Origin: a virus
IMG/VR virus record: IMGVR_UViG_3300035162_000814
Location: 1 to 33,600 of that record
Length of the DNA stretch: 33,600 nt
Direction: 5' to 3' (one strand)
Shown here: piece after piece, positions 1 through 33,309 of the stretch
How positions within the stretch are numbered: the first letter of the stretch is position 1
Layout: each line of letters starts with the position of its first letter
Made by a program: the position numbers and the translations under genes
Notes under the pieces: model-generated
What the model was told of the DNA's origin: nothing
Database searches by the model: none
What the model saw: the letters and a program-made list of their open reading frames with translations, nothing else

Positions 1-237
1 CTGCACAAGCCGCTGCACAAGCAGAAATTGACGCCGCTACACAAGCAGAAATTGACGCTGCTGCACAAGCCGCTGCACAAGCAGAAATTGACGCCGCTAC
101 ACAAGCAGAAATTGACGCTGCTGCACAAGCAGCACTCGAAGCAGAAGCCGCTACACAAGCAGAAATTGACGCCGCTACACAAGCAGAAATTGACGCTGCT
201 GCACAAGCAGCACTCGAAGCAGAAGCCGCTACACAAG
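1..237 (+). repeat. Tandem repeats inside the left-edge virion gene (60 bp and 78 bp units)
   Basis: Bases 1-60 and 61-120 are identical. A 78-base unit starting at 121 begins again at 199 and stays identical for 39 bases before diverging. All units are multiples of three and built from smaller blocks such as GCAGAAATTGACGC, so copy-number changes would keep the frame. The array probably continues left of the window. Confidence 0.9.
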
Positions 238-2569: not shown

Positions 2570-2579
2570 GAGGTGAAAC

Positions 2580-3449: not shown

Positions 3450-3468
3450 AATACGGAGATACTAGATA

Positions 3469-5727: not shown

Positions 5728-5739
5728 TAAGGGCTAACA

Positions 5740-8700: not shown

Positions 8701-11700
8701 GACCTGTACCCGAATCTTGACGCAGTGCGCAAAGCTATGGACGACCCTGCATTTGGGCGCATGGCTTTGGATTTAGGTGCAGTAGTTGGATTAGATATTC
8801 CTATGAACCCTTCCGTAGTCGAAGCGGTTGAAAAAGGTGACTTGGGCGATGTGCTATCAAATGTAGCGCGTACAAACCCCGTACGTCAAATCCGTACGTT
8901 GGCCCAAAAGTTTGCTGCTATAGCAGGCGACACAAAAATTGTTACCAAGAAGAACCTTAAAGCTGAAGACGGGCGCAAGGTTGCAGGGTTGTTTGATCCA
9001 AAGACCAACACAATATTGCTTGACGCGGGTACTGGTATCAACACGCATACTATAATGCACGAAATGTCTCACGCGGCTATGTCGGCATCACTGGCTGATC
9101 CTAAGAGTGCGTTCGCCAGAGACTTAAAGAAGCTGTTTAAAGACCTAGATGGTTATCTGGGTAGTGCGTACGGCGCACAAAACGTGGACGAGTTCCTATC
9201 AGAATCGCAGTCAAACGCGGAGTTTCGTTCTGACCTTGCCAGCATAAGCATCAAAGGTGAACCTGTTACGGCGCTACAACGCCTTCGTAACATTATACAG
9301 AACTTCTTTAGTAGAATTTTACCCTTTATAAAATCTCGCAACATTACTGCACTGCAAGAGGTAGACGCTCTTGTGGATGGGTTGATCGCGCCTGCACCGC
9401 AATACCGTAACGCTAATCAAATGGCGATGATGACCACAGCAGATGGGGTCAAGAAGTTTGCAAAAGAAGCGGTACAGGCTACGCAGAAATCAATAAACGC
9501 GGAAAGCCGCCAACAATACGGGTACAACGCTCGTGACTTCTTAACACAAGGCTTCTCAAAGAAATCTAAAAACTTGTTGATGAAGTTGACAGGTTTGCAA
9601 GGGCTTGGAGACATCGCAAGCGCCGTTGGTTTGGGTAGAATGGGGTACAAGCTAGACGAGTTAGTAGCCAAACAGCGTGGCGAAATACAAACTGCTAACA
9701 AGATGATCGAACGTAAGATAGAACGTATCCTCACTAAACTAGGCAAAGGCACATCCGAAGTTGCGCAGAAGCGTAAAGAAGCCTTGGACCGTTTAATCTA
9801 CGATACCGAGTACGGCGCAACGATCTACCAAGTAGACCCAACGAAACCACAGGGTGCGTACATCAACAAAGATGGTAGCCCTCGCATAGACAACGATGGT
9901 AACGACCTGTTGGCAGTGTGGAAGGCGCAACGTGCTGACTGGAACGCTATGAGTAAAGACGGACAAGAAGTCTTTAATGAAATGCGAGCCGTGTACAAAG
10001 ATCAGTACGAAAAGCTCCGTGACGTTGTTTTAAAACAAATTGACGAGTTGGTGCAGAACCCCGCTGACTCCGCTAAACTCAAGAAAGACATATTTGCCAA
10101 GCTGTTCGATGCTAGTAACCTAGCTGTCTACTTCCCGCTTATGCGTGAGGGCGAATACGTACTACGTTATGAGGTAAAGAACCCAAAATCTCCACGGGAA
10201 GCCACTGTAGTGCAGACTTTCACCACCTCTGCGGAGCGTGAAGATGCGGCTAAACAGTTTAGGGCAAACAAAGACTACAGAAACGTCGAGATTGTTGACG
10301 AAGTAAGCGCGGATACATTCAAGGGCACGGGCGTGGACCCTAGCTTCGCGTACGACACCTTGAACATCTTAGACAAAAATAAAGTAGACAAAGACGTAAA
10401 AGACCAGATATTAAAGCTATTCTTAAACTCACTGCCCGAGACATCATTTGCTAAGTCATTGCAGAAACGTAAAGGAACCCCGGGGTACATGCAGGACTCT
10501 GTGTACGCTCTCAAGACAAAGGGTTACAGCCTCGCAAGCCAGACAGCTAAACTTAAATATGGCGCTTTGCTACGGCAATACGAACAGCAGCTACGCGAGT
10601 TCCAGCAGCTAGATATACCTGAAGCCAAGAGTTTAGTGGGTAAAGGAGCCGAAAGGCTGACTGCCGCGTTCGGAGATGTAAAACTAGAACTGGAGAACCG
10701 TGCGAAATTTGCTCGCGTAGGCGCGGACAAGAAAAGCCTAGAGGAAGTGGCGCGTAGGCTAAACCAAACAGCCTTCATCTACACCATCGGTTTCAACGCA
10801 TCATCTGCCCTAGTTAACCTGTCACAAATTCCATTGTTTGTTGCTCCGTTCTTGGGTGGGAAACACGGGTACGTAAAAACGTACGCCGCTATCAAAGCTG
10901 CTTATGGTAACACATTACTTGGTGGTAAACGTGGTGGGAACATAAACTCTGTACTAGACTTCTATGATATATCCGACCAAGGCAACTTTACCTTGAAGAA
11001 AGGGCTTAAACTCCCTGAAGGTAAAGAAGCTGAACTAAAACGCATGGAAGCCTTGGTGCAAACAGCATCACAACGTGGCCTTCTTGGTCAAGGGTTCTTA
11101 GCAGAAGCTATGGGTTTAAACGAGGCGAGCCGCATCAAAAAGAGCGGCGCAGTCGGCAACGCTATGGATAACGCGTCTGTCCTATCTGCTTGGCTATTCA
11201 ACCATGCGGAGCAATTAAACCGCCAAGTAACCCTAATGGCCTCGTTTAATCTAGCGTTAGACAGCGTAACAAAAGGTAAAATTAATAACCCCAGCGCGGC
11301 GCAAATAGAAGAAGCCGTGCAAATGGCTATCTATGATACACAGCAAACAAACGGTGGTACGTTCTTAGAAACTGCTCCAAGTATCGCACGGGAAGGCATA
11401 GGCCGCGTTGCGTTTATGTACAAAAGCTACGGCCTACAGATGTACTACACCATGCTAAAGACCGCCAAGACTGCGTTTGATAGTGATAAAGGTAAGTTGT
11501 TTGGCCCAGACGGGTCACCCGAACGTAAAGCCGCGTGGAAACAACTTATAGGATTACACGGCTCTGCGTTGTTCTTCGCAGGTGTGCAGGGGCTTCCATT
11601 GTACGGCGCGGTAAAACTGATCGCTAACCTATTCTTCTTGGATGACGAAGAGGAAGATTGGGATACAATCGTACGTCAGCACATAGGCGAAGGTTGGTAC

Positions 11701-12381
11701 AAAGGCGCGATAACTCAGTTTGCAGGTATTGACGTTGCAAGTCGTATGGCCCTTACAGGATTGTTAATCCAAGAAAACAGGTTCAACAATGATCCGTCCT
11801 TAGAGGAAACTATAGGGTTCTACGCAGGTGGCCCAGCTCTAAGTGTAGCTAACCGTCTGTATCGTGGTGGTTCTGACTTACTGTCTTCCGAGGGAAATAT
11901 AGAACAGGGCATAGAAAACATTCTACCCGCAGGTGTAGCTAATGCGTATAAGGCCACGTTTGGTAGGTATGCAGATCAGGGCGGTATATACACAAGGCGC
12001 AACGATCCTATATATGACGACATGACAGGCGGCGAATTGATAGCGCAAGCCTTCGGTTTCCCCCCAACAGAATACACCTTCCGCCAAGAACAGAATGGCA
12101 TATCCAAGGGTATAGACATTGCGGTGGGTAAACGGCGTTCAGCGTTGCACAAGAAACTGTACGTAGCGCAGACGATGGGTGACTTCGATGCGGAAATGGA
12201 AATCTACGATGAAATAGACAAATTTAATGATCGTCATCCAGAGGCCATGATAACACCTAAATCTATAAAGCGTTCGTTGGACCAACATGCCAAGACTTCG
12301 GCAGAGATGTATAACGGGGTAACTCTCAGCCCACTATACCGTGACGCTCTGGAGATGATCCGCGAAGGGTATAAACAATAA
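5740..12381 (+). CDS. Giant polyvalent virion protein with zincin metalloprotease motif
   Basis: A 2213-residue protein starting 12 bases after the previous stop. The N-terminus (VEGPSGATKEQIVTIYN) is typical of large phage internal proteins. Hydrophobic Gly/Ala-rich stretches lie at about residues 82-102 and 145-170. Residues 370-860 are charged, Ala-rich and probably disordered. A zincin motif HEMSH occupies residues 1107-1111; E1151 or E1155 (DEFLSE) is a candidate third ligand. Downstream, FNASSALVNLSQIP (about residues 1685-1698) and the region around GIGRVAFMYKSYGLQMYYTM resemble the C-terminal part of PLxRFG-type large polyvalent proteins. A hydrophobic segment sits at about residues 1936-1960. 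Family knowledge suggests ejection with the DNA, as with T7 gp16. Protease activity is inferred from the motif only. It is the last gene of the late block. Confidence 0.75.
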   Translation: MALYELTDETGSKVQVEGPSGATKEQIVTIYNNTMAVNEREPERKLRENLENYYGTRQEAAGNIARSRKPTVGDYFGEVPKGLIGGAAGMLETGALGLAALLPEGAEDVVRDGIKAVGGAVQDYVVPDFNLENSIPRKVSEATGSFVGLAATTALNVPAGIGLAVSAGAGEASERARAEGASVEDRNLSAVLGIIPGALELLPIKFLSVINKAQKAKIRDALARIVEQGGIEAGQEAVSSIAQNLIAREVYKPDQSLIEGTAEEAALGGTVGAIIQSTLELVTPRTRGGTSDTSGEEVLALPAPTEDELRLSSTRQLQDSTSGEQINMPPPPEQITGPDDLGIQLDDGIYTDIPSATTRDQRTARTSEGIASLTAATKNKAAVIEQAKAELQNDGMITSKTRKNIEATLTPKEAAEALKDTRYEPALRLTGAGAQDNRAVGDVQRDLVPPKEIQDKQRFDDVIASQKRDSLSPDAKRSGRTASIAVEEQAAQARARERQGLAAAERGDVEAFEQPDLFAIEREQDERKYGKPEAEAVSEMLGPIDSGRAANPEVDLVDRIAALEAQETGANVRKATEQTRQKQEDIDIDTELGLRDMQTRVTEPERRAADRERPEQLSFRGELRQPKKTPEGITPLVSSASVPDAIPELTAPAGRKADVRADAEASRAGAQSIRSSSAGAGGATPSGAVQPQALNNGRLGRPVSGVGDAATGTQKQPSALTSTVTTSSQAVPGEAEVTPKPKPVTQKIEPAGSRRTSLGGGATPKGAKRGPIPAGIKGVKRVKAKEPEAKQVARLYAEETPDAVKTEFGGKQEEATTNPFNNTDNKKIKDKLLAGFSKSDKSKKEDAPVVAYLRAYPNPFDGLSMALYDKIHSEPLATNEVTNDPAARAATKARQFMGGVPSKKGQIAPADRVIAWARANLSKEANEKLDRRAKEIQLNQVRTVVFEGGPDRVMNAYEKRLLQDRKSLEAAIVGNYADPKELVKDYPDLYPNLDAVRKAMDDPAFGRMALDLGAVVGLDIPMNPSVVEAVEKGDLGDVLSNVARTNPVRQIRTLAQKFAAIAGDTKIVTKKNLKAEDGRKVAGLFDPKTNTILLDAGTGINTHTIMHEMSHAAMSASLADPKSAFARDLKKLFKDLDGYLGSAYGAQNVDEFLSESQSNAEFRSDLASISIKGEPVTALQRLRNIIQNFFSRILPFIKSRNITALQEVDALVDGLIAPAPQYRNANQMAMMTTADGVKKFAKEAVQATQKSINAESRQQYGYNARDFLTQGFSKKSKNLLMKLTGLQGLGDIASAVGLGRMGYKLDELVAKQRGEIQTANKMIERKIERILTKLGKGTSEVAQKRKEALDRLIYDTEYGATIYQVDPTKPQGAYINKDGSPRIDNDGNDLLAVWKAQRADWNAMSKDGQEVFNEMRAVYKDQYEKLRDVVLKQIDELVQNPADSAKLKKDIFAKLFDASNLAVYFPLMREGEYVLRYEVKNPKSPREATVVQTFTTSAEREDAAKQFRANKDYRNVEIVDEVSADTFKGTGVDPSFAYDTLNILDKNKVDKDVKDQILKLFLNSLPETSFAKSLQKRKGTPGYMQDSVYALKTKGYSLASQTAKLKYGALLRQYEQQLREFQQLDIPEAKSLVGKGAERLTAAFGDVKLELENRAKFARVGADKKSLEEVARRLNQTAFIYTIGFNASSALVNLSQIPLFVAPFLGGKHGYVKTYAAIKAAYGNTLLGGKRGGNINSVLDFYDISDQGNFTLKKGLKLPEGKEAELKRMEALVQTASQRGLLGQGFLAEAMGLNEASRIKKSGAVGNAMDNASVLSAWLFNHAEQLNRQVTLMASFNLALDSVTKGKINNPSAAQIEEAVQMAIYDTQQTNGGTFLETAPSIAREGIGRVAFMYKSYGLQMYYTMLKTAKTAFDSDKGKLFGPDGSPERKAAWKQLIGLHGSALFFAGVQGLPLYGAVKLIANLFFLDDEEEDWDTIVRQHIGEGWYKGAITQFAGIDVASRMALTGLLIQENRFNNDPSLEETIGFYAGGPALSVANRLYRGGSDLLSSEGNIEQGIENILPAGVANAYKATFGRYADQGGIYTRRNDPIYDDMTGGELIAQAFGFPPTEYTFRQEQNGISKGIDIAVGKRRSALHKKLYVAQTMGDFDAEMEIYDEIDKFNDRHPEAMITPKSIKRSLDQHAKTSAEMYNGVTLSPLYRDALEMIREGYKQ

Positions 12382-16283: not shown

Positions 16284-16541
16284 CTATACGTCTGTGTCTG
16301 CGTCGAAGTTAAACTCCAACTGTTCTTCTACAGGCTCGTTTCTAATCTCGGCCTGTTCTGCTTCTTTGACCTTGCCTGTTAAGGACTCGGTTACGGAAGT
16401 CTTGTTAAAACGGTAGGTATTACCGATTTTAATATACGTGGACTTAGGGATGTGCCCCTGCCGTACCCACGCACGGATAGTGGAAATGGATACTGCGAAA
16501 TGCTTCGCCAAATCCTCTATCGGTACAAATGGTTCTGCCAT
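16284..16541 (-). CDS. Small helix-turn-helix DNA-binding protein
   Basis: An 85-residue protein whose N-terminal half is a MerR/excisionase-type winged helix: IEDLAKHFAVSISTIRAWVRQGHIPKS followed by the wing TYIKIGNTYRFN. The C-terminal half is acidic and ends LEFNFDADTDV. Its ATG overlaps the stop of the preceding gene (TAATG at 16539-16543). It is a candidate regulator, for example binding one of the dyads found in this genome, or a replication accessory factor. No target is shown by the sequence. Confidence 0.75.
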   Translation of the reverse strand: MAEPFVPIEDLAKHFAVSISTIRAWVRQGHIPKSTYIKIGNTYRFNKTSVTESLTGKVKEAEQAEIRNEPVEEQLEFNFDADTDV

Positions 16542-18540: not shown

Positions 18541-18558
18541 TTTAGGGATTTCCCTAAA
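18541..18558. repeat. Dyad repeat A, copy 1
   Basis: TTTAGGGATTTCCCTAAA, perfect seven-base arms around ATTT. It fills the gap between the stop of the small basic gene (18559) and the ribosome-binding site of the SNF2 helicase gene. Confidence 0.9.
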
Positions 18559-18816
18559 TCATTTTTTCTTTTTGTAGTTACGTGCGCGGTTCTTGCTCGA
18601 ACTCTCTATCGTCACGCCATCTTTGTTAGTGCCGCCTTTGACCAAAGCCTTCTTGTGACTAACGTCTTTACCCTCGCGCTTGTCAGCTTTACCGTTCTTG
18701 TTTTTGTCCGCGCTTTCACGATCCATCTTGCGTCTTGCACGTTGGCGTTCCATGCGGCGTTCAAAGGTTGCACTGCCCACAGGGGCGTTGACTTGTTTTT
18801 TACGTGGTTTTTTCAT
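18559..18816 (-). CDS. Small, very basic protein with HNH-like remnant
   Basis: An 85-residue protein dominated by Lys and Arg. The ATG at 18816 overlaps the preceding stop (TGATG) and has GGAG seven bases upstream; an alternative start eight codons earlier lies inside the nuclease gene. Residues 13-45 look helical (FERRMERQRARRKMDRES). The segment DVSHKKALVKGGTN resembles the conserved core of phage HNH-like proteins (DHKxxLxxGGxN), but no second His/Asn pair or zinc Cys is present, so nuclease activity is doubtful. More likely a nucleic-acid-binding protein. Confidence 0.65.
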   Translation of the reverse strand: MKKPRKKQVNAPVGSATFERRMERQRARRKMDRESADKNKNGKADKREGKDVSHKKALVKGGTNKDGVTIESSSKNRARNYKKKK

Positions 18817-19484
18817 CAGTTGGCTCCGTTGTGGACACATTCAATTATAGGACAGTAGCGTCTGCATAACCCGTTAGGCCGTGCGTTCCACATGTCTTCT
18901 TTCGCCGCGGTTTCCATTTGCCCGTACTTGCCAAGCCATTTCTCCCACAGCTTACTCTTATCATACTCCATGTATGTATCTTTTACCAAGTCATTACACA
19001 CCACAAACAACAATCCCGCACGAACTTTCGTTACTTGTGGGTAACGTGCCATGAGAGACAGGGCCATTAATTCTAGTTGCCCCTTGTCTGCGTACTTAGA
19101 CGACTTGCCTGTTTTGTAGTCCACGACTGTAGCCACTTCGCCATCTAATATTACTAGATCAGCAATCCCGCGGAACCAAACATCCGAGGCGTAGAAGTCA
19201 CAGGCTTCTAGGTTTTCTGTTAACCCCATCTTTATTTCACAGAGCTTTTCACCCTGCCTGTTCTTCAAAGATGTTAAGGCTTTGGACGCAAAACTAAACT
19301 TCGCTGGCACTGGTACGTCTTTACCAACAAAGTCTTCTGCCATTTTATGAAATTCGTTACCGTAGAGTATGGCTTCGGTCTGAACAAATGGCACCTCCTT
19401 CAAGATGTGTTTATGGTAGTATTGCTTTGGGCATTGCTCAAAATCTTTGATCTTACTGTAGGACCACGGGGCTACTTTAGTCAT
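18816..19484 (-). CDS. Cas4/RecB-like PD-(D/E)XK nuclease with Fe-S cysteines
   Basis: A 222-residue protein with the RecB-family nuclease motifs in order: H46 (GNEFHKMAED), D109 (GIADLV), D122 and K124 (VVDYKTGK), and Q136 (GQLELMAL). One Cys in the N-terminal motif FEQCPKQYY (C18) plus C207, C211 and C216 at the C-terminus have the arrangement used to bind a 4Fe-4S cluster in Cas4 and AddB. Expected activity is exonuclease or endonuclease on DNA ends. The ATG overlaps the GIY-YIG gene stop (ATGA), and SNF2 helicase follows downstream, a common phage pairing. There are no cas genes nearby, so a CRISPR role is unlikely. Confidence 0.88.
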   Translation of the reverse strand: MTKVAPWSYSKIKDFEQCPKQYYHKHILKEVPFVQTEAILYGNEFHKMAEDFVGKDVPVPAKFSFASKALTSLKNRQGEKLCEIKMGLTENLEACDFYASDVWFRGIADLVILDGEVATVVDYKTGKSSKYADKGQLELMALSLMARYPQVTKVRAGLLFVVCNDLVKDTYMEYDKSKLWEKWLGKYGQMETAAKEDMWNARPNGLCRRYCPIIECVHNGAN

Positions 19485-20200
19485 AGTCGTTGATTCCTTG
19501 TGTATTTCTCGCGCTTACCCAACGCAACCATTTGCCGCATACTGTACGGCGCGGCAAGGTTCCCATGAGTGCTACGACCCTGCTCAGACGGGCACAATGC
19601 GTGGATGTAAAGACTTTCTAACATATCTAACTCTTCTCTCTCACAGGGAGTAAATGCAAAAGAATCAAATACCTTACCCGACTGTTTGTGGGAATACACC
19701 CTAGCGTACACGTTAACGGACTGCCCAACATACACAACGACCCCATCACGCACTAGAAAATACACTCCACAAGCAAACTCGTACCCCTGCGCCCCCGCTA
19801 TTATCTCTTCTTCTAACAACATATCCCGCGAGGTTATCCGGTTACTAAGAATGTCTAAAGATAACGTGTGTGTTGAACGTCCCTTACGGTCTTCTAACTC
19901 CGCTATCTCCTCCCTTAGTTCCAACACCTTGGCGACGTGCATAGCGTGGGTGTAGGCTACTTTATCCACCTCAGTACGGGATATCTCCAATGCTTCTGCC
20001 CTTGCCCTAGCAACAACATCCAGAGGGCGATACCTTGCGAGTAACCTGTGTTTAGCTTTTATAGGTCTACCGATACGCGCGCACCGCGCCACGTAACTAC
20101 CCGCCTGCATATCACCGACCCGAAAATATTTGTTCAGTTGTGTAGTCGATAGGTACTGCCTAAACACTTCGGCGGGGATGAACTCTGGTCTTACCCCCAT
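19481..20200 (-). CDS. GIY-YIG nuclease-domain protein
   Basis: A 239-residue protein. The ATG at 20200 overlaps the previous stop (TGATG) and has GGAG upstream; in-frame GTGs exist three and one codons earlier. Residues 35-60 are basic. Residues 65-130 are helical. The C-terminal domain is GIY-YIG: GVYFLV at 145-150, VVYVGQS at 155-161, R167 and H171, and the metal-binding Glu E195 in ELDMLESLYI. The fold cuts DNA in homing endonucleases, UvrC-like repair proteins and some phage nucleases. It sits in frame with the operon rather than as a free-standing insertion, so a replication or host-DNA degradation role is more likely than homing. Confidence 0.8.
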   Translation of the reverse strand: MGVRPEFIPAEVFRQYLSTTQLNKYFRVGDMQAGSYVARCARIGRPIKAKHRLLARYRPLDVVARARAEALEISRTEVDKVAYTHAMHVAKVLELREEIAELEDRKGRSTHTLSLDILSNRITSRDMLLEEEIIAGAQGYEFACGVYFLVRDGVVVYVGQSVNVYARVYSHKQSGKVFDSFAFTPCEREELDMLESLYIHALCPSEQGRSTHGNLAAPYSMRQMVALGKREKYTRNQRL

Positions 20201-20568
20201 CACGCCCACTCCGCGTCATCAAAAAAATCTTCTGGTGTTAACACGTCAGCGTCTACTGCACGTACGCTCTCGCTTATACGCCTACGTGTCCTGTAAAAAC
20301 CTTTGTGGTCTGGGAAAGCACGCATATACCACCTTGCGTAGTACGCGCTATAGTTGTTGTTTAGTTTAAACTCAGACTTACCGCACACGTCTGCTTGGTC
20401 AGTCTCCCACCGAATACGTTCAAAAACACCCTTAGCTGAATAATTACGGAAGCCACGCGCGTATAGTTCACCCGTAAACCTAACAAATAAATCCCAAACT
20501 TTAGGGTGTGCTTTGTTAAAGGCTTCCGCGGCGCGTTCAATTTGGTCTTTCCTCGATTCCACTTCCAT
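20200..20568 (-). CDS. Conserved phage hypothetical protein
   Basis: A 122-residue protein whose ATG overlaps the PolA stop (TAATG at 20566-20570). I recognise the pattern FNKAHPKVWDLFVRFTGEL, then RGFRNYSAKGVFERIRWETD, then LNNNYSAYYARWYMRAFP, which occurs widely in phage and prophage genomes without a known function. It is mixed helical with many aromatic residues. It ends with an acidic stretch (LTPEDFFDDAEWA). Tight linkage with DNA polymerase suggests a replication-related role; that is an inference from context. Confidence 0.75.
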   Translation of the reverse strand: MEVESRKDQIERAAEAFNKAHPKVWDLFVRFTGELYARGFRNYSAKGVFERIRWETDQADVCGKSEFKLNNNYSAYYARWYMRAFPDHKGFYRTRRRISESVRAVDADVLTPEDFFDDAEWA

Positions 20569-22397
20569 TATTCACATTCTCCGTACGATTTTCCCACGCC
20601 GCTCTCGCATGTGATCGGTAAACCTTCAGCCCATTTAGGTATCTGGTTCATACATTCTTCCACATACGCTCTTGCGGTATCCAACTCGTCGTCGGTCACA
20701 CATGCCACAATGCTGTCATGTACTGTTAGCACAACTTTGTATCGCTTGGCAATAAGTAACATTTGGTGCCCTATGATGCAACGTGCAACGGCTTGGCACA
20801 CGTTCTCGACAACCTTCCCGCCGTATATACGGTTCGGACCTTTTCGGGTCTTATAGGTGTACTCGTAGCCACGTTCGGATTTTTCTGCGGTTAGGCCATG
20901 ATAGAACATAGGTAGGCCAGAAGGTAGAATTATTGCGCTCTGCTTTGCGTCCACGGTCAATATGCCTTTACGCCCAAAGTCTACGGCATCCCCCCGCTGT
21001 AGGTACTGCACTGTATTGTTGGCGGCTCTCCACAACGAACTGATAGAACCGTTGGCATCACGGTAAACCTGTATGATACGCCGAGCTTCGTCTAGCTCTA
21101 TGTAGACACCCATGCCCTGTAACTGCGCTTGGAACTTAACCGCGCCCATGCCGTACCCTGCACCAAGAATTGTAGTCTTACCCACAAATCTCTGGTCTTT
21201 GCTTACCCCGTCCACTGGCACGTTATATATACTGGACGCCATATACTTGTATACGTCCTCGCCGTCTGCAAATTGCTTGGTCAAATCATCCTGCCCTGCA
21301 AGCCACGCCAATACACGCGCTTCGATCTGCGAACTGTCACAGTCAATCAGAGAATGTCCTTCGGGTGCTACAATGCTACCCTTTAACTTCTTACCGTTTG
21401 GCCCACGACTAGGCAGGTTTTGGAGGTTTATCTTGTCGTCACCACCCCACCTACCTGTATGCGCCGCGTAGTATCTTACAGGAACGGGCAGAAGGCCACG
21501 GTCCGCGATGTCAATGAACCGCTGTGTGCGGGTTTCTTCCAAGGTAGACTTCGTGCCAAGCCTTGCGGCCACCAACGCTTGCACCCTATCATCCTCATGT
21601 TCTAACAAAAGTTTGAACTCCTCGTCGTTCTTGGCGAACGCAAAGGTTTCTTTTTCTGTGGTAGGACTGATCTTCGTAGGGGGTTTGACCCCAAAACCTT
21701 TTAGCAACTCCGCGAACTTCGGGTTGGACATCAGGTCTTTCTTGTCCGTAATACCCGCATCCGCTAACAGGTCTTCCTTGCGTTTCTTCACATCTTGCAA
21801 GTGTGAACGTAGTAGGTCGCGGTCCAAGTCTAGGGTTGGCTCAGTAAACATCCTCAGTGTGGCGTCTATCAGACGTAGTTCTTCACGAGGGAAGCGTTTA
21901 GCCATTATGCTAAAAAGTTTATAGGTTAGGTCCACGTCGTTGACGCAGTAATCCCCATACCTATCTAAATCTTCTGGTGCAAAATCTCCACGCCGTTTTC
22001 CGAGTGCGTTGAGTATCTCGTGCCCTTTAGTGCCGACACCGTACCTTTCAGATACCGCAGCGAGACTTGCGCGAGCTTCAGTCCCATGAAGGGCACGGGC
22101 AATACACAAAGTATCGGTATACATCCGAGGACAAATATCAAAACGCCAACTAAGAATGGCACCATCAAACATAGTGTTATGGCAAAGTAACATAGCCGTT
22201 TCCCAAGGGAACCCCTTGAGATATTCTTTAATCTCTTCGTGCGTCCCACTGGCCCACTCCGTCTGCTGTTTGTTAAGTTTTACGCCCACGCCGATCACCT
22301 CAAAACGAGGGTCACGAACGTAGGCTTCTGTTGTCATTTTACGCAGAGAAAAATCCCTGTCGTAGAATGTTTCAAAGTCTAGGGTTATAAGGTCCAT
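20568..22397 (-). CDS. polA: Family A DNA polymerase with 3'-5' exonuclease
   Basis: A 609-residue replicative polymerase. The exonuclease domain shows LDFET (D7, E9), HNTMFDG (D78) and YCVNDVD (Y150, D154). The polymerase domain shows motif A with D354 (DCDSSQIEAR), motif B R403-x3-K407-x7-Y415-G416, and motif C VHDS with H560 and D561. The residue matching E. coli Pol I F762 is Leu (L411). Motif C has Ser562 where HDE is usual. There is no 5'-3' exonuclease domain, as expected for a phage enzyme. It is coupled to the DUF6378-like gene upstream and the hypothetical gene downstream. Confidence 0.93.
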   Translation of the reverse strand: MDLITLDFETFYDRDFSLRKMTTEAYVRDPRFEVIGVGVKLNKQQTEWASGTHEEIKEYLKGFPWETAMLLCHNTMFDGAILSWRFDICPRMYTDTLCIARALHGTEARASLAAVSERYGVGTKGHEILNALGKRRGDFAPEDLDRYGDYCVNDVDLTYKLFSIMAKRFPREELRLIDATLRMFTEPTLDLDRDLLRSHLQDVKKRKEDLLADAGITDKKDLMSNPKFAELLKGFGVKPPTKISPTTEKETFAFAKNDEEFKLLLEHEDDRVQALVAARLGTKSTLEETRTQRFIDIADRGLLPVPVRYYAAHTGRWGGDDKINLQNLPSRGPNGKKLKGSIVAPEGHSLIDCDSSQIEARVLAWLAGQDDLTKQFADGEDVYKYMASSIYNVPVDGVSKDQRFVGKTTILGAGYGMGAVKFQAQLQGMGVYIELDEARRIIQVYRDANGSISSLWRAANNTVQYLQRGDAVDFGRKGILTVDAKQSAIILPSGLPMFYHGLTAEKSERGYEYTYKTRKGPNRIYGGKVVENVCQAVARCIIGHQMLLIAKRYKVVLTVHDSIVACVTDDELDTARAYVEECMNQIPKWAEGLPITCESGVGKSYGECE

Positions 22398-22924
22398 TAC
22401 TTGTGCTTCTGCTGTGTAGCGATTTCCCCACCACAGGCTAGATACCCTGCACCATCAATCCAGTTGTCGCTATTCTGCGGGTTTGATTTGATACGTGCGA
22501 TCTTTAACAAGGTCATCATCACCGCAACATCTTTACTGGTAATGATTAAGTCAAAGCCCAAATAAGCAGTCCACAGGTCAGAGATACGTTGAAAGTTGTC
22601 TTCCATGTCGCCGTGGTCTGCCGCCCGATCTTTGGTGACGTACTGTTCAGCTTGATTGAGGATACCAGTTCGCGTCCACGCGTTCGGGTCTACACCCGCT
22701 GTGTTAACACCATGCTTAGTCATTTCGTACGCCATGTCCAACACCGCAGGTTTAAACGGCGCAGGCTCCGCTTCAACTAACTTTTTTGGTGTGCCGATTT
22801 TCTGCGTCAGCTTCCACACATAGCTAGTGGAAGTACCCGTAGCCTTGGCTATTTCGCTTATCGTGGCCTTGCGGTGCTTCAGTTTATACGCCCAGATTTT
22901 TTCTGATTTTGTTTTCTTAGTCAT
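22397..22924 (-). CDS. HTH plus DUF6378-like protein
   Basis: A 175-residue protein with AGGAGAACGAC before the ATG at 22924. Residues 10-45 form a helix-turn-helix (KHRKATISEIAKATGTSTSYVWKL). The C-terminal domain matches the DUF6378 pattern: VTKDRAADHGDMEDNF, then SDLWTAYLG, then DVAVMMTLLKIARIKSNP, then DNWIDGAGYLACGGEI. That all-alpha family is common in phages and has been thought related to nucleotide-processing folds, but no activity is established to my knowledge. The HTH fusion suggests DNA binding. It is immediately upstream of PolA, with a one-base overlap. Confidence 0.75.
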   Translation of the reverse strand: MTKKTKSEKIWAYKLKHRKATISEIAKATGTSTSYVWKLTQKIGTPKKLVEAEPAPFKPAVLDMAYEMTKHGVNTAGVDPNAWTRTGILNQAEQYVTKDRAADHGDMEDNFQRISDLWTAYLGFDLIITSKDVAVMMTLLKIARIKSNPQNSDNWIDGAGYLACGGEIATQQKHK

Positions 22925-22933
22925 GTCGTTCTC

Positions 22934-23263
22934 CTATCTCGGTAACCCGAATTGTTTTTTTATTTTTCCCACAGTGCGAGGGCTTATTGACAGTATTTCT
23001 GCTATGTCAACTAATGTCATACCTCGAAATATCATGCGGTTAACCATATCTGCGTCTTTGGTTAATGGTAGTTTGTTTGCGGCAACCTCCTCTATCTGCT
23101 TGGGTCTATCACCCATTGCTCTACCTGCTCTGCCTTTGTTGCCATTCGCAACGTAGCGGTTTTGCCGCTCTAGTTTTGGATTAACTTGTTTATCCTTTAC
23201 AAGTAGGTTTACCCAACATTTGCGGTATAGTTCTTCGTATTTTATGCGCTCAAACTCGTTCAT
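22934..23263 (-). CDS. Small HTH protein
   Basis: A 109-residue basic protein. The ATG at 23263 overlaps the previous stop (ATGA). The C-terminal 35 residues form a helix-turn-helix of resolvase or sigma region 4 type (MTLVDIAEILSISPRTVGKIKKQFGLPR). The N-terminal half is helical with several Lys/Arg and a GNKGRAGRAMGDRPKQ linker. Probably a transcriptional or replication regulator. Its stop codon TAG is part of the next gene's Shine-Dalgarno (TAGGAG). Confidence 0.7.
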   Translation of the reverse strand: MNEFERIKYEELYRKCWVNLLVKDKQVNPKLERQNRYVANGNKGRAGRAMGDRPKQIEEVAANKLPLTKDADMVNRMIFRGMTLVDIAEILSISPRTVGKIKKQFGLPR

Positions 23264-23415
23264 ATGTCTTTTTCCTGTGCGGGGGTTAACTTCTTATCCT
23301 CACGTTCCACTATAGCTGCCCTCTGCTGTTTGATTAATTCTTGTTGGCGTTCCAGTTCAATAAACTGCTGGTCCACTTCGCTAATCTGCGGAAAGCATAC
23401 GATGTTTTTAGTCAT
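23260..23415 (-). CDS. Small hypothetical coiled-coil protein
   Basis: A 51-residue protein starting at ATG 23415, chosen because GGAGGT lies five bases upstream; the frame extends to 23469 without better signals. It is Gln/Glu/Lys-rich and helical (FIELERQQELIKQQRAAIVERED). No family recognised. Confidence 0.6.
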   Translation of the reverse strand: MTKNIVCFPQISEVDQQFIELERQQELIKQQRAAIVEREDKKLTPAQEKDI

Positions 23416-23440
23416 TGTAACCTCCATCTTTAAATTGGTG

Positions 23441-23460
23441 CCCTGTGTGGAAGAACAGGG
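23441..23460. other. Small dyad in the 180-bp gap before the 51-residue gene
   Basis: CCCTGT and ACAGGG pair around eight bases. The rest of the gap 23416-23594 holds no convincing gene, promoter or repeat; a self-complementary GAGCGCTC lies near 23520. Confidence 0.3.
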
Positions 23461-23594
23461 ACTAACCATATCGCGGTTTCTTCGGTACGATCACAAACGC
23501 GGATCATCATATCGGAGAGCGCTCGCTCGTACTGCTGTGGTTTTCGCGGGACAATGCCAAAAAACCGCCACCCACTCACAGCTTGGGCGTACTG

Positions 23595-23897
23595 TTAACT
23601 GTTTAGCACAATAGACCATGCTCGTAGGTCATCTCCTACTGTGTGCATATTGTCCTCGTTAACCACCATATCCAGACCACCTGCGGCGCGGATTTCCGTT
23701 AGGTTCTTTTCCTGCAATGGCGTAGCTTTATTGTTTCCCGCCTTACATTCGATCCCGAAGAACAAACCCTCGTAACATCCTACGATGTCAGGTACGCCGC
23801 TTTTGCCATAGCCGCCTGTAACGGGGTAGAAGTAGTACGCACGTAAATCTTTAAGTTGCTTTACTACGACCTTTTTAACTTTAGCTTCCGGTGTCAT
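23595..23897 (-). CDS. VRR-NUC domain nuclease
   Basis: A 100-residue single-domain protein with the VRR-NUC fold signature: GKSGVPDIVGC (D37), then FFGIECKAGNN (E50, K52), and Gln-rich helix PLQEKN. The ATG at 23897 is chosen because GGAG lies six to seven bases before it; a GTG four codons upstream overlaps more of the preceding gene. Stand-alone VRR-NUC proteins in phages act as structure-selective or Holliday-junction-type nucleases. Third nuclease of the operon, with a fold different from the GIY-YIG protein. Confidence 0.88.
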   Translation of the reverse strand: MTPEAKVKKVVVKQLKDLRAYYFYPVTGGYGKSGVPDIVGCYEGLFFGIECKAGNNKATPLQEKNLTEIRAAGGLDMVVNEDNMHTVGDDLRAWSIVLNS

Positions 23898-24078
23898 CTT
23901 TCTCTCCACGAATCCGTTTTAAATCTTTTAATATACTTTTGTTGTCGCGCTTCAGGCTTTCCACTACTTTGTTTAGCCTAGCGATTTCATTTCTCTGCAA
24001 CGCAAGTCTACTTTGTAACCGCGATATTTTGTTTGCGTCCATGTTATTTAAATTCCATTTAGCCAAGGTGACCCCCAT
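23881..24078 (-). CDS. Small coiled-coil protein
   Basis: A 65-residue protein, mostly one long amphipathic helix (SRLQSRLALQRNEIARLNKVVESL). The ATG at 24078 has AGGGG about nine bases upstream; a second ATG at 24042 lacks any Shine-Dalgarno. The 3' end overlaps the VRR-NUC gene by 17 bases. The start codon is embedded in a GGTACTGGTATCATG motif that recurs elsewhere. It looks like a lysis-spanin or structural coiled coil only in outline; function unknown. Confidence 0.6.
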   Translation of the reverse strand: MGVTLAKWNLNNMDANKISRLQSRLALQRNEIARLNKVVESLKRDNKSILKDLKRIRGEKDDTGS

Positions 24079-24093
24079 GATACCAGTACCCCT

Positions 24094-24117
24094 GTCGAGG
24101 AGCCGTAACTCCCCGAC
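24094..24117 (-). other. Hairpin in the leader of the small coiled-coil gene
   Basis: GTCGAGGAG (24094-24102) pairs with CTCCCCGAC (24109-24117), nine base pairs counting one G-U on the minus-strand RNA. It lies between repeat A copy 2 and the start codon at 24078. No U-tract follows. Confidence 0.55.
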
Positions 24118-24119
24118 TA

Positions 24120-24137
24120 TTTAGGGATTTCCCTAAT
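24120..24137. repeat. Dyad repeat A, copy 2
   Basis: TTTAGGGATTTCCCTAAT, one mismatch from the consensus. The TAG stop of the 83-residue gene lies inside its right arm (24133-24135). Confidence 0.85.
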
Positions 24138-24384
24138 TATAGACCCAGAATAGATATGGTCCTATCCTTGCACCAACGCCATCCACATCGTTAGGTGGCG
24201 GTGGAACTCTTAACAGGGACAGCGTAGCGAGCCGTTCCTGCATCCAATTTGGTAGTGCTTCGACACTAGAGTAATGCCCATCTACCTCATTGTCAACACG
24301 GTTAATGCCAAAACTTGTGATTGTGACACCTCTAGTGTTGTGTGATACATTTACGCGGTAGGTGATACCGTTGTGTGTGTTCAT
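24133..24384 (-). CDS. Hypothetical protein sharing a C-terminal module with its neighbour
   Basis: An 83-residue protein, ATG at 24384 with no strong Shine-Dalgarno. The C-terminal 40 residues (WMQERLATLSLL, then VDGVGARIGPYLFWVYN) resemble the C-terminus of the adjacent 298-residue protein (IQHKCAAMSIC, then VDGVGYRVDDHTFYVYV). The N-terminus is beta-like (ITYRVNVSHNTRGVTITSFG). Function unknown. The stop codon is inside repeat A copy 2. Confidence 0.65.
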   Translation of the reverse strand: MNTHNGITYRVNVSHNTRGVTITSFGINRVDNEVDGHYSSVEALPNWMQERLATLSLLRVPPPPNDVDGVGARIGPYLFWVYN

Positions 24385-24395
24385 GTTATAACAGC

Positions 24396-30888: not shown

Positions 30889-31060
30889 TAGGTGTCATGA
30901 ACTATCGTGTGGTGGGTAGACGCGGTATGTGACGCAATGTGACGTTGTGTAGGTCTGTAAGTGACTGATATTACACCAATGTTCCAAAGTTCAAATGTTC
31001 CAAAAGGATATGTCTAGGTTTGTGGGAGGTGTTTTAGCGCGAAGCCCCCCTCTTACCCTC

Positions 31061-31095
31061 TTCAATAATAGAAAGATATATATACTTAAAAACTT
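31061..31095. other. AT-rich stretch beside the GGAACA repeats
   Basis: Almost continuous A/T including AAAGATATATATACTTAAAA, flanked on the left by a GC-rich run and on the right by the direct repeats. Typical look of a DNA-unwinding element. Confidence 0.5.
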
Positions 31096-31196
31096 GGAAC
31101 AAATGGAACAATGGAACAATTTCAACAACTTAACCCTGTTTTTTTTGGAACAATGATGGAACAATGGGAACAATGGAACAATTTCAATGACTTAGC
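31096..31196. repeat. Clustered GGAACAATG direct repeats
   Basis: Three copies of GGAACA at 31096, 31105 and 31113, and four at 31147, 31158, 31167 and 31175. Each cluster ends in GGAACAATTTCAA followed by YRACTTA, so the two clusters are a duplicated unit. Spacing is 8 to 11 bases. Inverted copies (TGTTCCAA) occur near 30980 and 30996. Confidence 0.8.
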
Positions 31197-31207
31197 ATTT
31201 GCGTGAG

Positions 31208-31236
31208 GCGCAACGCTGTTGGGATACTGGTATCGG
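31208..31236. repeat. GATACTGGTATC dyad, copy with GGCG prefix
   Basis: GGCGCAACGC, then GGGATACTGGTATCGG. Arms GATAC and GTATC around TG. Repeat A copy 9 follows five bases later. Confidence 0.65.
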
Positions 31237-31240
31237 ATTG

Positions 31241-31258
31241 TTTAGGGAAATCCCTAAA
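31241..31258. repeat. Dyad repeat A, copy 9 (reversed centre)
   Basis: TTTAGGGAAATCCCTAAA, just after a GATACTGGTATC dyad. Confidence 0.9.
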
Positions 31259-31307
31259 TGTAGTGGGGAGTGCGCTAACCCGTTTGGAACATGACAAAAC
31301 ATGCTAG

Positions 31308-31336
31308 GGCGTGGCGCTACTTGAATACTGGTATCA
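31308..31336. repeat. GATACTGGTATC-like dyad, second copy
   Basis: GGGCGTGGCGCT, then TGAATACTGGTATCAT. Repeat A copy 10 follows at 31342, about the same distance as in the first copy, so dyad and repeat A form a repeated pair. Confidence 0.65.
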
Positions 31337-31341
31337 TGCCA

Positions 31342-31359
31342 TTTAGGGAAATCCCTAAA
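31342..31359. repeat. Dyad repeat A, copy 10 (reversed centre)
   Basis: TTTAGGGAAATCCCTAAA, lying two bases from the U-tract of the terminator at 31361-31385. Confidence 0.9.
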
Positions 31360-31360
31360 T

Positions 31361-31385
31361 AAAAAAAGACCCGCCGAAGCGGGCC
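31361..31385 (-). terminator. Intrinsic terminator, leftward
   Basis: On the minus strand GGCCCGC, TTCG, GCGGGTC and seven U residues: a compact stem with a stable UUCG loop. It lies about 100 bases behind another terminator, with no gene between. Confidence 0.9.
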
Positions 31386-31452
31386 TAGTGGGGCATTCTG
31401 GTATGAGCCGGTGCCAATGTACCACGTACTGTGCCAATACGCAACAGGCAGG

Positions 31453-31482
31453 GCGTACCGCAGCTGGAATACTGGTATCATA
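31453..31482. repeat. GATACTGGTATC-like dyad, third copy
   Basis: GGGCGTACCGCAGCTGGAAT, then ACTGGTATCAT. It shares the GGCG-rich prefix with the copies at 31208 and 31308. A degenerate copy (GGCATTCTGGTATGA) sits near 31391. Confidence 0.6.
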
Positions 31483-31488
31483 GGACAT

Positions 31489-31518
31489 AAAAAAATGGGG
31501 GAACCTTTCGGCTCCCCC
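31489..31518 (-). terminator. Intrinsic terminator behind the 82-residue gene
   Basis: On the minus strand GGGGGAGCC, GAAA, GGTTCCCCC, then A and seven U residues. Nine pairs including one G-U and a GAAA loop. It starts eight bases after the stop at 31526. Confidence 0.92.
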
Positions 31519-31525
31519 TAAGATG

Positions 31526-31774
31526 TTAGTCTTCCATAGCTGATAGTGGTAAATCCACTCCGTCCAGAACAAACTTGAGGTCTGCAATTTGTTCGTCTTG
31601 TGCTTCAATAGTAGCGCTCAATTCTTTAATCACTCTATCACGATCTTGTATCGCGTTGATGATTACGTTGATGTCATCCGGTGTTATATTAGCGTCTTTT
31701 AATTTGCCTGCGCGCGCCTTGTTTCCGATGTATGCAAGTAATCCCAAGTGTCTATCATCAATAAAGTTTGGCAT
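31526..31774 (-). CDS. Small hypothetical coiled-coil protein
   Basis: An 82-residue protein with GGAGGGAAT before the ATG at 31774. The C-terminal half is a helical, acidic coiled coil (VIKELSATIEAQDEQIADLKFVL), the first half has LGLLAYIGNKARAGKL. No family recognised. It forms a two-gene unit with the upstream 180-residue gene, and a strong terminator follows. Confidence 0.75.
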   Translation of the reverse strand: MPNFIDDRHLGLLAYIGNKARAGKLKDANITPDDINVIINAIQDRDRVIKELSATIEAQDEQIADLKFVLDGVDLPLSAMED

Positions 31775-31794
31775 GTTATTCCCTCCGGTTGGTT

Positions 31795-31818
31795 GGGGCA
31801 GACGTGATTGCCTGCCCC
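31795..31818 (-). other. Hairpin between the two genes of the right-hand minus unit
   Basis: On the minus strand GGGGCAGGC and GTCTGCCCC pair around AATCAC with one G-U. No U-tract. Both this hairpin and the terminator at 31489 follow the stop codon through CATCTTAGGGG, so the 3' ends look duplicated. Confidence 0.7.
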
Positions 31819-31825
31819 TAAGATG

Positions 31826-32368
31826 TTAGCGTTTGATTTGAAGTGTATCGAATACTGATAACACCGCCTTGCGTGTCGGCGTGTAATCTTTACCGAGTGC
31901 GTCTTTATTTTTCTCAACCCAATTCTTTACGTTGGTTATGAGTTGATCGCGCATCTCAATAGTCGTTTTATCAGCAGGCTTATCTTTAACCTTTGCCGCA
32001 CCGTTCTCGACCGCCTCAATCTTGCCAAGATTACCATCGGTCTTTTCAAACAAGGTAGGCTCTTGCCGCATCATTAGTTGATCTTTCAACCCTGCTATTT
32101 CAGAACCACATGCCGCACTATCGTGCGCACGACCTTTTGCCTTCAATACCTTTTCAAACAAGGTAACTAATTCGGCGCGGCTTTCTTTAGTCGCTGTTGA
32201 TTTGCCAGATGCAAGATTGTTCTTGGTAGGCGCGACAGCATCGGTCCAACGCATGTGCTGGGTTGCTACATCAAGATGCGTGGCAAACTTGGCTTCACCG
32301 CCTAACTTAGCATTCCATGCGTCCTTGATTGATTTTAGGGCGATCGCGTTATTGAGAATATTTGACAT
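31826..32368 (-). CDS. Hypothetical protein, 180 residues
   Basis: Start ATG at 32368 has GGAG seven to eight bases upstream; an upstream extension to 32416 has no binding site. The protein is Lys/Ala-rich and helical, with a central segment ESRAELVTLFEKVLKAKGRA and SEIAGLKDQLMMRQEP, a Lys-rich linker and a C-terminal helical domain. One Cys only. No motif recognised. It is transcribed away from the terminase genes and may be an early or regulatory protein. Confidence 0.7.
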   Translation of the reverse strand: MSNILNNAIALKSIKDAWNAKLGGEAKFATHLDVATQHMRWTDAVAPTKNNLASGKSTATKESRAELVTLFEKVLKAKGRAHDSAACGSEIAGLKDQLMMRQEPTLFEKTDGNLGKIEAVENGAAKVKDKPADKTTIEMRDQLITNVKNWVEKNKDALGKDYTPTRKAVLSVFDTLQIKR

Positions 32369-32467
32369 TGTTTTAGTCTCCGTTAATTCGGCTTGACATT
32401 GTGCCTTCCGATACAATCTTTATGCCATGTTATAACGTGTTACACAATAGATAGAACCGCACCGCTT

Positions 32468-32503
32468 GGCATTATATGGCATTGGATCGCATTACATACC
32501 ATT
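32468..32503. repeat. Helically phased CATT array
   Basis: GGCATT at 32468, GGCATT at 32478, CGCATT at 32488 and ACCATT at 32498: four units spaced exactly ten bases, directly before repeat A copy 11. Confidence 0.55.
32471..32476 (-). promoter_or_regulatory. Possible -10 for the 180-residue gene
   Basis: TATAAT on the minus strand, about 100 bases before the ATG at 32368. No -35 match; the CATT array occupies that place and repeat A copy 11 lies just upstream, a layout that fits an activator-dependent or repressed promoter. Confidence 0.35.
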
Positions 32504-32519
32504 TAGGGAAAGCCCTAAA
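32502..32519. repeat. Dyad repeat A, copy 11
   Basis: TTTAGGGAAAGCCCTAAA: arms intact, one change in the centre. The only copy on the terminase side. Confidence 0.85.
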
Positions 32520-32652
32520 TCAAGCATACGTTAGGCATACCCTACCCCCACCCCCCGCGCTGTCATGTGGGACTCCATGTTAGTCTAGTAATACTAATAC
32601 GCCCAAATAAATTGGTATTTTTTGAAAACCCCCCACCCCTTTTTAGAAACCC

Positions 32653-32681
32653 TTGTCAAAAAATTTTTTATAACCTATTAT
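32653..32681 (+). promoter_or_regulatory. Sigma70-like promoter of the terminase genes
   Basis: TTGTCA (32653-32658) and TATTAT (32676-32681) with a 17-base spacer; each differs from consensus at one position. Start of transcription would be near 32688, about 25 bases before the ATG at 32713. Confidence 0.7.
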
Positions 32682-32712
32682 TACGTTATCGGTTACCAAC
32701 CTGCGACGTATT

Positions 32713-33309
32713 ATGACAATGATTGCCACCCCAGAACTAGGGATTCCCTTGGAGGATGAGGTCAATAAAATGCCTCTACCAGAACGTGCATCCGCGTTGG
32801 GCAAAACTGTTGACGAATTAGAAAAGTACGGTGTGGACCTTGAACCTGATGACCAAGACAAGGAAGTTGCCTCTACTTTAGCCACTGCATATGCTAGTGC
32901 ACCAGACAAAACCTCTAATAAAGTAACACATAAGCGTGCCGCAGTTCTAACACCACCGTCCATACGGTTAACAAACGACATACTTACTGAGTTTAATCAT
33001 TCTGTAGTAGAATCTTCTAAGCAACTACGTAATTTGGTTACCAACAAGCTCGTAATTGAGTCCGAAAACCCCGATCCTCGTGTACGTATGCGTGCGCTAG
33101 AGCTTCTGGGTAAGATTTCAGACGTAGGGCTGTTTACAGAGAAGTCCGAGGTGACGATAACGCACCAAACAACCGACGATATCAAAGAAAAACTCCGTGG
33201 GAAGCTCGCAAAACTGGTAAATCCACCTGTTGTAGTAGAAGATGCCGTGGTTGTACCCGACGAAACCCCAGATATTGCCGAAGAATTTGGGTTTGACGAT
33301 GGCGACTGA
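32713..33309 (+). CDS. Terminase small subunit (putative)
   Basis: A 198-residue protein directly before the large terminase gene. The central helical domain (LTEFNHSVVESSKQLRNLVTNKL, then ESENPDPRVRMRALELLGKISDVGLFTEKSEVTITHQ) matches a pattern I recognise in phage small terminase subunits. The C-terminus is Val/Glu/Asp-rich. The ATG at 32713 has no Shine-Dalgarno; an in-frame ATG at 32770 has GAGGT seven bases upstream and is a real alternative. The 3' end overlaps the large-subunit gene by 11 bases. It should recognise DNA for packaging. Confidence 0.75.
   Translation: MTMIATPELGIPLEDEVNKMPLPERASALGKTVDELEKYGVDLEPDDQDKEVASTLATAYASAPDKTSNKVTHKRAAVLTPPSIRLTNDILTEFNHSVVESSKQLRNLVTNKLVIESENPDPRVRMRALELLGKISDVGLFTEKSEVTITHQTTDDIKEKLRGKLAKLVNPPVVVEDAVVVPDETPDIAEEFGFDDGD

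Follow-up and report, generated by a model that had tools for sequence, protein, structure and literature searches.

The virus fragment IMGVR_UViG_3300035162_000814 is linear and comprises 33.6 kb, and this entire stretch, called the window in the following, contains eleven copies of an 18-bp dyad. These dyads are probably the double-stranded DNA operators of one phage repressor, and the candidate for this cognate regulator is the 180-amino-acid product of the first leftward gene, 31826..32368 (minus strand). Comparison of the window with its relatives shows that each genome holds one network of such sites, that the letters of the sites change jointly with the regulator gene, and that both the placement and the letters are conserved. 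We infer from these patterns that the protein would bind the dyads as a dimer, block transcription, set the timing of gene expression and confer immunity. The best-known dispersed roadblock operators are those of actinobacteriophages, and a similarly working system would be present here in a large uncultured phage group, with a candidate repressor that belongs to no known family. The natural specificity classes, which include pairs of phages that are near-identical beside the regulator cassette, are natural material from which a protein-DNA recognition code could be read, and they raise the questions how a phage changes its repressor specificity together with some ten distant sites and whether phages without lysogeny genes still have superinfection immunity.

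Dyad Sites in the Window

The original prediction had reported eleven dyads from the letters of the window, and a scan with TTTAGGGATTTCCCTAAA at up to three mismatches returned 22 matches, i.e., exactly these eleven sites read on both strands, compared with a mean of 0.05 in 100 shuffles, none of which reached 22. Ten of the predicted positions were recovered as given, and the eleventh, 29054, marks the start of TAGGG within a full 18-mer that begins at 29052. The claim that structural genes are free of sites also held: none was found in the rightward arm (1-12381) at this threshold, and in the window and 11 long relatives all 122 exact-core sites are located between the primase and terS genes, so that the sites are confined to one arm and are not scattered at random through coding regions.

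Most sites stand at the borders of genes. The dyad at 18541..18558 (minus strand; TTTAGGGAAATCCCTAAA in the leftward reading) ends one nucleotide before the AGGAGG of the SNF2 helicase gene, the one at 24120..24137 (minus) overlaps the stop codon of gene 24133-24384, and the one at 25342..25359 (minus) touches the stop of 25359-26015 and lies upstream of 24396-25331. The copy at 27894..27911 (minus) is found 8 nt upstream of the start of the small open reading frame (ORF) 27709-27885, within which lies the copy at 27832..27849 (plus), whose centre has the opposite orientation. Those at 29052..29069 and 30135..30152 (both minus) precede the Shine-Dalgarno sequences of the MoxR-type ATPase gene (27940-29034) and of the DUF3150-like gene (likely start 30113), and the dyad at 30612..30629 (minus) is located upstream of gene 30357-30572, with the strongest leftward promoter match preceding it by approximately 230 bp. 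The remaining three copies are on the plus strand: 31241..31258 lies in the stretch 30572-31526, which holds no convincing gene, shortly past a copy of ATACTGGTAT; 31342..31359 comes directly after a hairpin at 31386-31367 that points leftward, has a T run and resembles a terminator; and 32502..32519 stands approximately 210 bp upstream of terS, with its core 71 bp upstream of the predicted -35 hexamer of the regulator.

This placement recurs in the long records: 45 nt or less separate 59 of 121 sites from the next leftward start codon that has a Shine-Dalgarno-like sequence, a proximity seen for 14% of points drawn at random from that arm, and the site edge falls 9-28 nt from the start codon in 55 of the 121. 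At the helicase gene, the stop codon, dyad, Shine-Dalgarno sequence and start codon follow each other with almost no spare base, a layout that holds in classes A and B, in several phages of class C and in the TTACGG phages; one contig, L168, has no such dyad at this gap. The dyad centres of the window are asymmetric, and seven of the eight operon copies share one orientation, as had been predicted. Across the relatives orientation is a bias and not a strict rule: class A centres read AAAT 47 and ATTT 17 times and AACT 27 and AGTT 13 times, class B centres read AACT and AGTT (34 vs. 12), ATCT and AGAT (22 vs. 18) and ACCT and AGGT (22 vs. 18), and the centre is symmetric in 15 of 166 class A and 12 of 139 class B sites.

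Dyad Networks Across the Phage Family

Relatives were sought with the family A DNA polymerase (PolA; at least 590 confirmed) and the ATPase (285), and the best 80 of each were used; out of 303 sequences, 71 that were contained in others were removed. The terS gene was present in 114 contigs, 95 of which extend at least 500 bp upstream of it, and 84 entered the class table; the contigs L299 and L313, with TAGGGA-N3 dyads and with regulator or dyad present, stand outside this table because their dyad is absent from the class list. The observation made in the window holds for a large uncultured phage family.

A scan for TTTAGGGATTTCCCTAA matched 56 stretches of viral contigs. Relatives that hold enough of the arm mostly carry one repeated dyad each, which differs between phages and includes TTAGGG-N4-CCCTAA, TCGGGC-N4-GCCCGA, TTAGTG-N3-CACTAA, GTAGTG-N3-CACTAC, TTACGG/C-N4, TTAGTC-N4, TTAGGC-N4, and TAGGGA-N3. 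Of the 69 non-redundant contigs that measure 12 kb or more, 54 carry one dyad at least three times, as none of their 69 shuffled versions does, and no dyad reaches three copies in the other 15; the 12 long records contain 7 to 13 dyads each. In 50 kb taken from each of the phages KPP25, Rollin and phiA008, no dyad of the scanned kind occurs more than twice.

The same gaps carry dyads in close relatives, with letters particular to each class, so that the predicted sites are conserved in position. Sites of one genome change their letters together, alignable gaps included. In the helicase gap that matches window position 18541, relatives carry TCGGGC, TTAGTG, or TTACGG dyads instead, and a comparison of L183 (class A) with G001 (class B) reveals a change of the site only, with flanks identical at 94/100 and 77/100 positions and the site itself at 8/16; eight other comparisons of alignable gaps are less clean, with flanks from 46/100 to 91/100. 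Mixed contigs were also observed: L020 combines a class B regulator and four B sites with one A site at its far end, and L054 and L029 are likewise mixed. These three contigs are short, and assembly joins are a possible cause; they were excluded from the gene-by-gene identity comparison and from part of the regulator counts.

The Candidate Regulator Gene Tracks the Dyad Class

Among 21 window genes compared, gene 31826-32368 splits by dyad class. In the whole regulator set the window regulator matches 24 of 29 other class A contigs and none of 30 class B contigs, and restriction to contigs whose locus is intact and that have two or more sites gives 20 of 24 class A contigs (median identity 65%) and none of 27 from class B, where a similar-sized protein occupies the position. 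Profile searches found one regulator in 10 of 11 long relatives, and in the eleventh, G005, terS lies at the contig end. Via intermediates, 81 of 84 regulators fall into one BLAST cluster. The regulators are mostly basic, with a median isoelectric point of 9.4 in classes A and C and 8.9 in class B.

As linked control gene we used terS (32713..33309, plus strand), which is named by its position before a fragment of the terminase large subunit gene; it has no PHROG or Pfam family match, and the next ORF is terL in PHROGs. For 80 of the 84 contigs, belonging to the four largest classes, the dyad class changes three times on the regulator tree, which is the minimum, compared with 13 times on the terS tree; for classes A and B only, the numbers are 1 and 10. 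Pairs of A and B phages with terS at least 95% identical (n = 16) have regulators of 9-23% identity, and same-class pairs of equally similar terS (n = 80) have a median regulator identity of 87% (range 19-100%); the values for the DUF3150-like gene were left out of this comparison on account of a length error in the frame. In six aligned pairs the similarity stops 86-168 bp before terS and partly resumes, mostly around -1130 to -1410, and some of these pairs share further short blocks inside the divergent stretch. The alignments suggest that the regulator moves as a cassette, and sites up to 14 kb away must then have been altered separately.

The helix-turn-helix (HTH) proteins at 16284, 22934, and 25359, which had been proposed as binders, fared differently: none of them tracks the dyad, and the gene that does has no recognised HTH. 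As binders, the HTH protein at 16287 was rejected with the same median identity of 93% in 10 class A and 9 class B contigs, the HTH protein at 22937 with 50% in class A vs. 50% in class B (9 and 10 contigs), and the D5-like protein at 25362 because it was found in 4 A and 6 B contigs only.

AlphaFold2 predicts a nearly all-alpha fold for the window regulator with a mean predicted local distance difference test (pLDDT) score of 94 and a predicted template modelling (pTM) score of 0.75, and the model of a class B member (mean pLDDT 88, pTM 0.59) arranges its helices in a similar order. The one hint of a DNA-binding domain among the seven regulators scanned is the weak match of a class D member to an Arc-like PHROG (E 6e-4).

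Predicted Promoters and Proposed Mode of Action

The strongest leftward promoter match, TTGACA-17-TATATT with a TG before the second hexamer (30860..30888, minus strand), agrees with the consensus at 11 of 12 positions and is likely the main promoter of the leftward operon; no dyad lies in it or adjoins it. The predicted terS promoter, TTGTCA-17-TATTAT (32653..32681, plus strand), is likewise without a dyad, and the same box is found in many class A and B relatives. The promoter-like box predicted for the regulator, TTGTGT-17-CATAAA (32419..32447, minus strand), is a weak consensus match that is conserved in relatives, and a dyad lies 49-91 bp upstream of it in 26 of 30 class A and 16 of 30 class B contigs. 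In class C the dyad occupies the spacer of the regulator's conserved box in 4 of 13 contigs, three of which have a second dyad 70-72 bp upstream of the first hexamer of the box, and in some class B contigs (L149, L300, L305, and L316) and in L171 a dyad stands just before the Shine-Dalgarno sequence of the regulator itself. The candidate regulator thus has a dyad in its own upstream region, as an L5-type system would have. The distances of 49-91 bp from dyad to -35 hexamer fall near 5-9 of the 10.5-bp turn, and with 10-bp repeats intervening this phase is only suggestive; the estimate omits the doubtful boxes of L189, L326, L328, G009, L164, L208, and L213 and the leader sites of L149, L300, L303, and L305.

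According to the mechanism we propose, a symmetric dimer would bind each dyad with one subunit per half-site. Repressor bound at the site near its own promoter would exert autoregulation, and repressor at the sites squeezed in between one gene's stop codon and the Shine-Dalgarno sequence of the next would stop elongating RNA polymerase in the leftward operon. The best leftward promoter match has no dyad and dyads stand at several genes behind it, which fits a roadblock better than a block of the promoter; such a roadblock would shut down replication and early genes started from this dyad-less promoter. The repressor of a resident phage may likewise shut down a newly arriving phage that has matching sites, and homotypic silencing of this kind would favour rare specificities and thereby give rise to discrete dyad classes and to swapping of regulator cassettes. 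The network is probably under immunity-type selection. The system may serve as a shut-off within the lytic cycle together with the exclusion of like phages, or it may belong to a carrier state that has escaped recognition.

Several observations weigh against this reading and temper our confidence in it. Regarding the promoter, the consensus scan missed the regulator box and found 10 promoter-like sites compared with 12.3 in shuffles, and the box was not found in 4 of 30 class A, 8 of 30 class B and 7 of 13 class C contigs; with a box this weak and not seen in these contigs, the claim that some sites lie outside transcripts is tentative. Regarding the protein, scans of seven regulators against Pfam and PHROG gave no convincing family and recognised no DNA-binding domain, Foldseek returned no match at E 0.001 or better for the window regulator model in PDB and BFVD, and the best VIA-align hit (Z 5.7 over 42 residues) is not meaningful for a helical model; the missing structural matches do not prove a new regulator fold. 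The co-variation is also less clean than its summary values, with same-class regulators down to 19% alike even where terS is at least 95% identical, deep branches of the regulator tree that rest on 10-20% identity, and a 2213-amino-acid protein from the end of the rightward arm that separates A (40-67%) from B (26%) too, in three contigs of each. At the outermost stem position 1, class A sites contain 18 compensated pairs, which may represent a subclass with GTTAGGG like that of G007, and in class C a spacer of 3 or 4 is easier to reconcile with a hairpin loop than with a rigid dimer. Finally, neither a tyrosine integrase (PF00589) nor ParA (PF13614) was found in 11 relatives, whose records are possibly incomplete, and a serine recombinase (PF00239) matched in one of the 11 at E 0.004, below the cut-off, so that lysogeny, the usual setting of such repressors, is without support.

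Competing Explanations

An explanation we regard as unlikely is translational control, in which the dyads would act as RNA hairpins just ahead of Shine-Dalgarno sequences and the same phage protein would bind them there. Their stems with loops of 3-4 nt fold at -5.4 to -11.2 kcal/mol, the loop length may be 3 or 4, site edges lie 9-28 nt from start codons in the proportion given above, and several sites are probably transcribed, as the best leftward promoter match is located upstream of them. An RNA stem requires mainly pairing; a DNA-binding dimer requires letters. In class A there are no compensated pairs at positions 2-7 of the stem in 186 sites, compared with 22 other deviations, six of which are G-U, and this single-pair count would miss sites with two or more compensated pairs; class B has one compensated pair at positions 2-7 in 152 sites and class C none at positions 1-7 in 155 sites. 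The class D counts were not used, as they are mostly chance (65 of 159 with three mismatches). The core letters of the stem are nearly fixed within each class and the centre, or loop, varies, which favours a double-stranded DNA operator over an RNA hairpin, the main alternative of the original prediction. Moreover, some sites lie upstream of or inside the predicted promoter box of the regulator, and no Rfam family matched the window at gathering thresholds.

A quite improbable alternative is a role in middle gene expression, with the sites as phage-specific promoters or activator sites and the regulator as a sigma-like factor or activator. Their placement just upstream of gene starts and their joint change with one phage protein would agree with this, but the helicase-gap dyad ends so close to the AGGAGG, one nucleotide away, that no room is left for a start site after it, and by eye no constant -10 or -35 element accompanies the intra-operon sites. 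A promoter match of the TTGACA-17 type does precede the DUF3150-like gene in some class B and C relatives. A search for a T7-type RNA polymerase (PF00940) in 16 records gave no match, and as the control genomes were silent too this search is void and does not count as evidence. We give still less credence to replication, packaging or partition marks that are positioned merely where they are tolerated: some sites do lie near the iteron-like repeats 31096-31182 or near the conserved G-rich stretch and 10-bp repeats before terS, but the sites are spread over approximately 14 kb, often at gene leaders, no ParA was found in the 11 relatives, and a mark of this kind need not co-vary with the first operon gene. 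That the dyads are ordinary intrinsic terminators or hairpins at mRNA ends is highly improbable. They are short inverted repeats in gaps, and two of them (27895 and 29053) pass a lax terminator pattern, but on the strand opposite to the operon; none was reported in operon direction in the scanned stretch 24000-32800 (site 18541 lies outside it), the clear terminator-like hairpins at 31386-31367 and 31518-31497 are separate features, and the identical letters within each genome and their joint change would be left unexplained.

Returning to the repressor-operator explanation, an extended form of it is attractive, and we consider it possible without holding it as our expectation: gene 31826-32368 would found a family of DNA-binding repressors that is new and whose fold is unseen in solved structures, and in phages that lack recognisable lysogeny genes it would run a network of some ten roadblock operators, all symmetric. 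Its specificities would diversify by cassette exchange followed by the one-by-one conversion of distant sites, and phages in the midst of this conversion, such as L020, would occur in nature.

Relation to Known Systems

The stoperators of the cluster A mycobacteriophages L5 and Bxb1 are described as 20-30 sites of 13-14 bp without dyad symmetry whose orientation is required, and L5 Rep as a monomer with an HTH and a Stoperator domain (PMC6550527, PMC9283540). Judged from these descriptions, the dyad network resembles them in its many sites outside promoters along operons, in one site at the repressor's own control region and in a motif specificity that co-varies with the (here candidate) repressor. 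It differs in that each record contains 7-13 dyads, which are 17-18 bp long and weakly biased in orientation, in that the protein shows no recognisable relation to Rep, although a distant one is possible, and in that no integrase or ParA was found in 11 relatives. The L5-like interpretation of the original prediction therefore survives in part: one repressor with many gap sites fits best, and the dyad symmetry and loose orientation depart from it. With symmetric sites, no Rep-like protein recognised and neither integrase nor ParA in the 11 relatives, the network appears to work like L5 stoperators without being a member of that type.

Lambdoid immunity regions encode an autoregulated repressor whose discrete specificities are exchanged as a cassette. 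The present system would be similar in its dyad operators, in the autoregulation proposed for its repressor and in the cassette exchange of specificities; however, lambda operators are clustered at two promoters and the dyads are dispersed along the operon, and no HTH was recognised in the candidate regulator, unlike lambda CI. Lambdoid CI binds symmetric operators as a dimer (PMC9283540). The dyad network also shares with phage P1 and its repressor C1 the principle of one (here candidate) repressor and many dispersed sites. Phage P1 is a temperate plasmid phage, in which the single repressor C1 acts on many asymmetric sites scattered over the genome, mostly at promoters, whereas the dyads are symmetric and mainly intra-operon. 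In phage N4 the virion RNA polymerase uses hairpin promoters, and small hairpin-capable repeats upstream of early genes are a common trait; in contrast to N4, no virion RNA polymerase was identified here, the sites abut Shine-Dalgarno sequences and their letters co-vary with a 180-amino-acid protein.

The closest cultured group by PolA is represented by Rhizobium phage RHph_TM3_14A (L214, MN988472.1; 38% identity), in which the gene order ATPase, metallopeptidase, PolA, nuclease, helicase, primase is similar. Within 50 kb this phage repeats a dyad of its own, GTTACC-N6-GGTAAC, 13 times, but unlike in the window family copies also fall within the genes for PolA, helicase and primase and within the structural region, so that the same function is not shown. 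Its gene 32240-35323 carries the annotation putative integrase; in an alignment with 25% identity it covers 92% of the DUF927 primase of the window, and it probably encodes a primase. Among the titles and abstracts listed from open PubMed Central texts, none dealt with these phages or with a dyad network of this kind.

Genomic Context and Additional Features

The rightward arm of the window (1-12381) ends with the gene for the 2213-amino-acid protein; four other proteins of this arm have no PHROG match, and the arm is therefore called structural by position. The leftward arm encodes a DUF927 primase/helicase, a Gp2.5-like single-stranded DNA-binding protein, an SNF2 helicase, a PD-(D/E)XK nuclease, the family A DNA polymerase, an endonuclease, a DUF2201 protein and the MoxR-type ATPase, and past it follow the rightward gene taken as terS and the terL fragment. 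The longest relatives measure 58-65 kb. Among cultured phages the nearest by PolA are the Rhizobium phages RHph_TM (38% identity), followed by the KPP25 group and others (at most 34%), and the MoxR-type ATPase has distant matches in phages of 73-79 kb, which we take to be N4-like. No near DNA match to window positions 1-25000 was found among sequenced phages, and tblastn of the window regulator, one class C regulator and terS against 50,697 phage records gave no match. A genome scan for a host gave two distant PolA relatives (47% in a Flavobacteriaceae metagenome-assembled genome and 33% in an Endozoicomonas assembly), and in neither of the two stretches compared were the five most frequent dyads listed repeated ones.

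The window also contains another repeated dyad, ATACTGGTAT, at 31224, 31325, and 31469, with partial copies on the reverse strand at 24080 and 25403. Its copies near the 31241 and 31342 sites are perhaps extended -10 promoters or another operator; that they are promoters for rightward transcription whose start site is covered by an operator is an idea only. Two clear terminator-like hairpins with T runs (minus strand, 31386-31367 and 31518-31497) lie behind gene 31526-31774, and small RNAs are possible. A candidate replication origin was noticed at 30980-31182, where seven GGAACAA repeats, five of them exactly TGGAACAAT, oppose two TGTTCC copies across an A+T-rich stretch, and a candidate packaging site upstream of terS (32420-32600, also in relatives) combines a conserved stretch of the GACAGCGCGGGGGGTGGGG type with 10-bp repeats of the AATGCCAT type. 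The 2213-amino-acid protein (5740-12381) matches the LPD39 and DarB-like large polyvalent families, and it is 26% identical to its counterpart in phages such as G001 despite replication genes that are approximately 80% or more identical.

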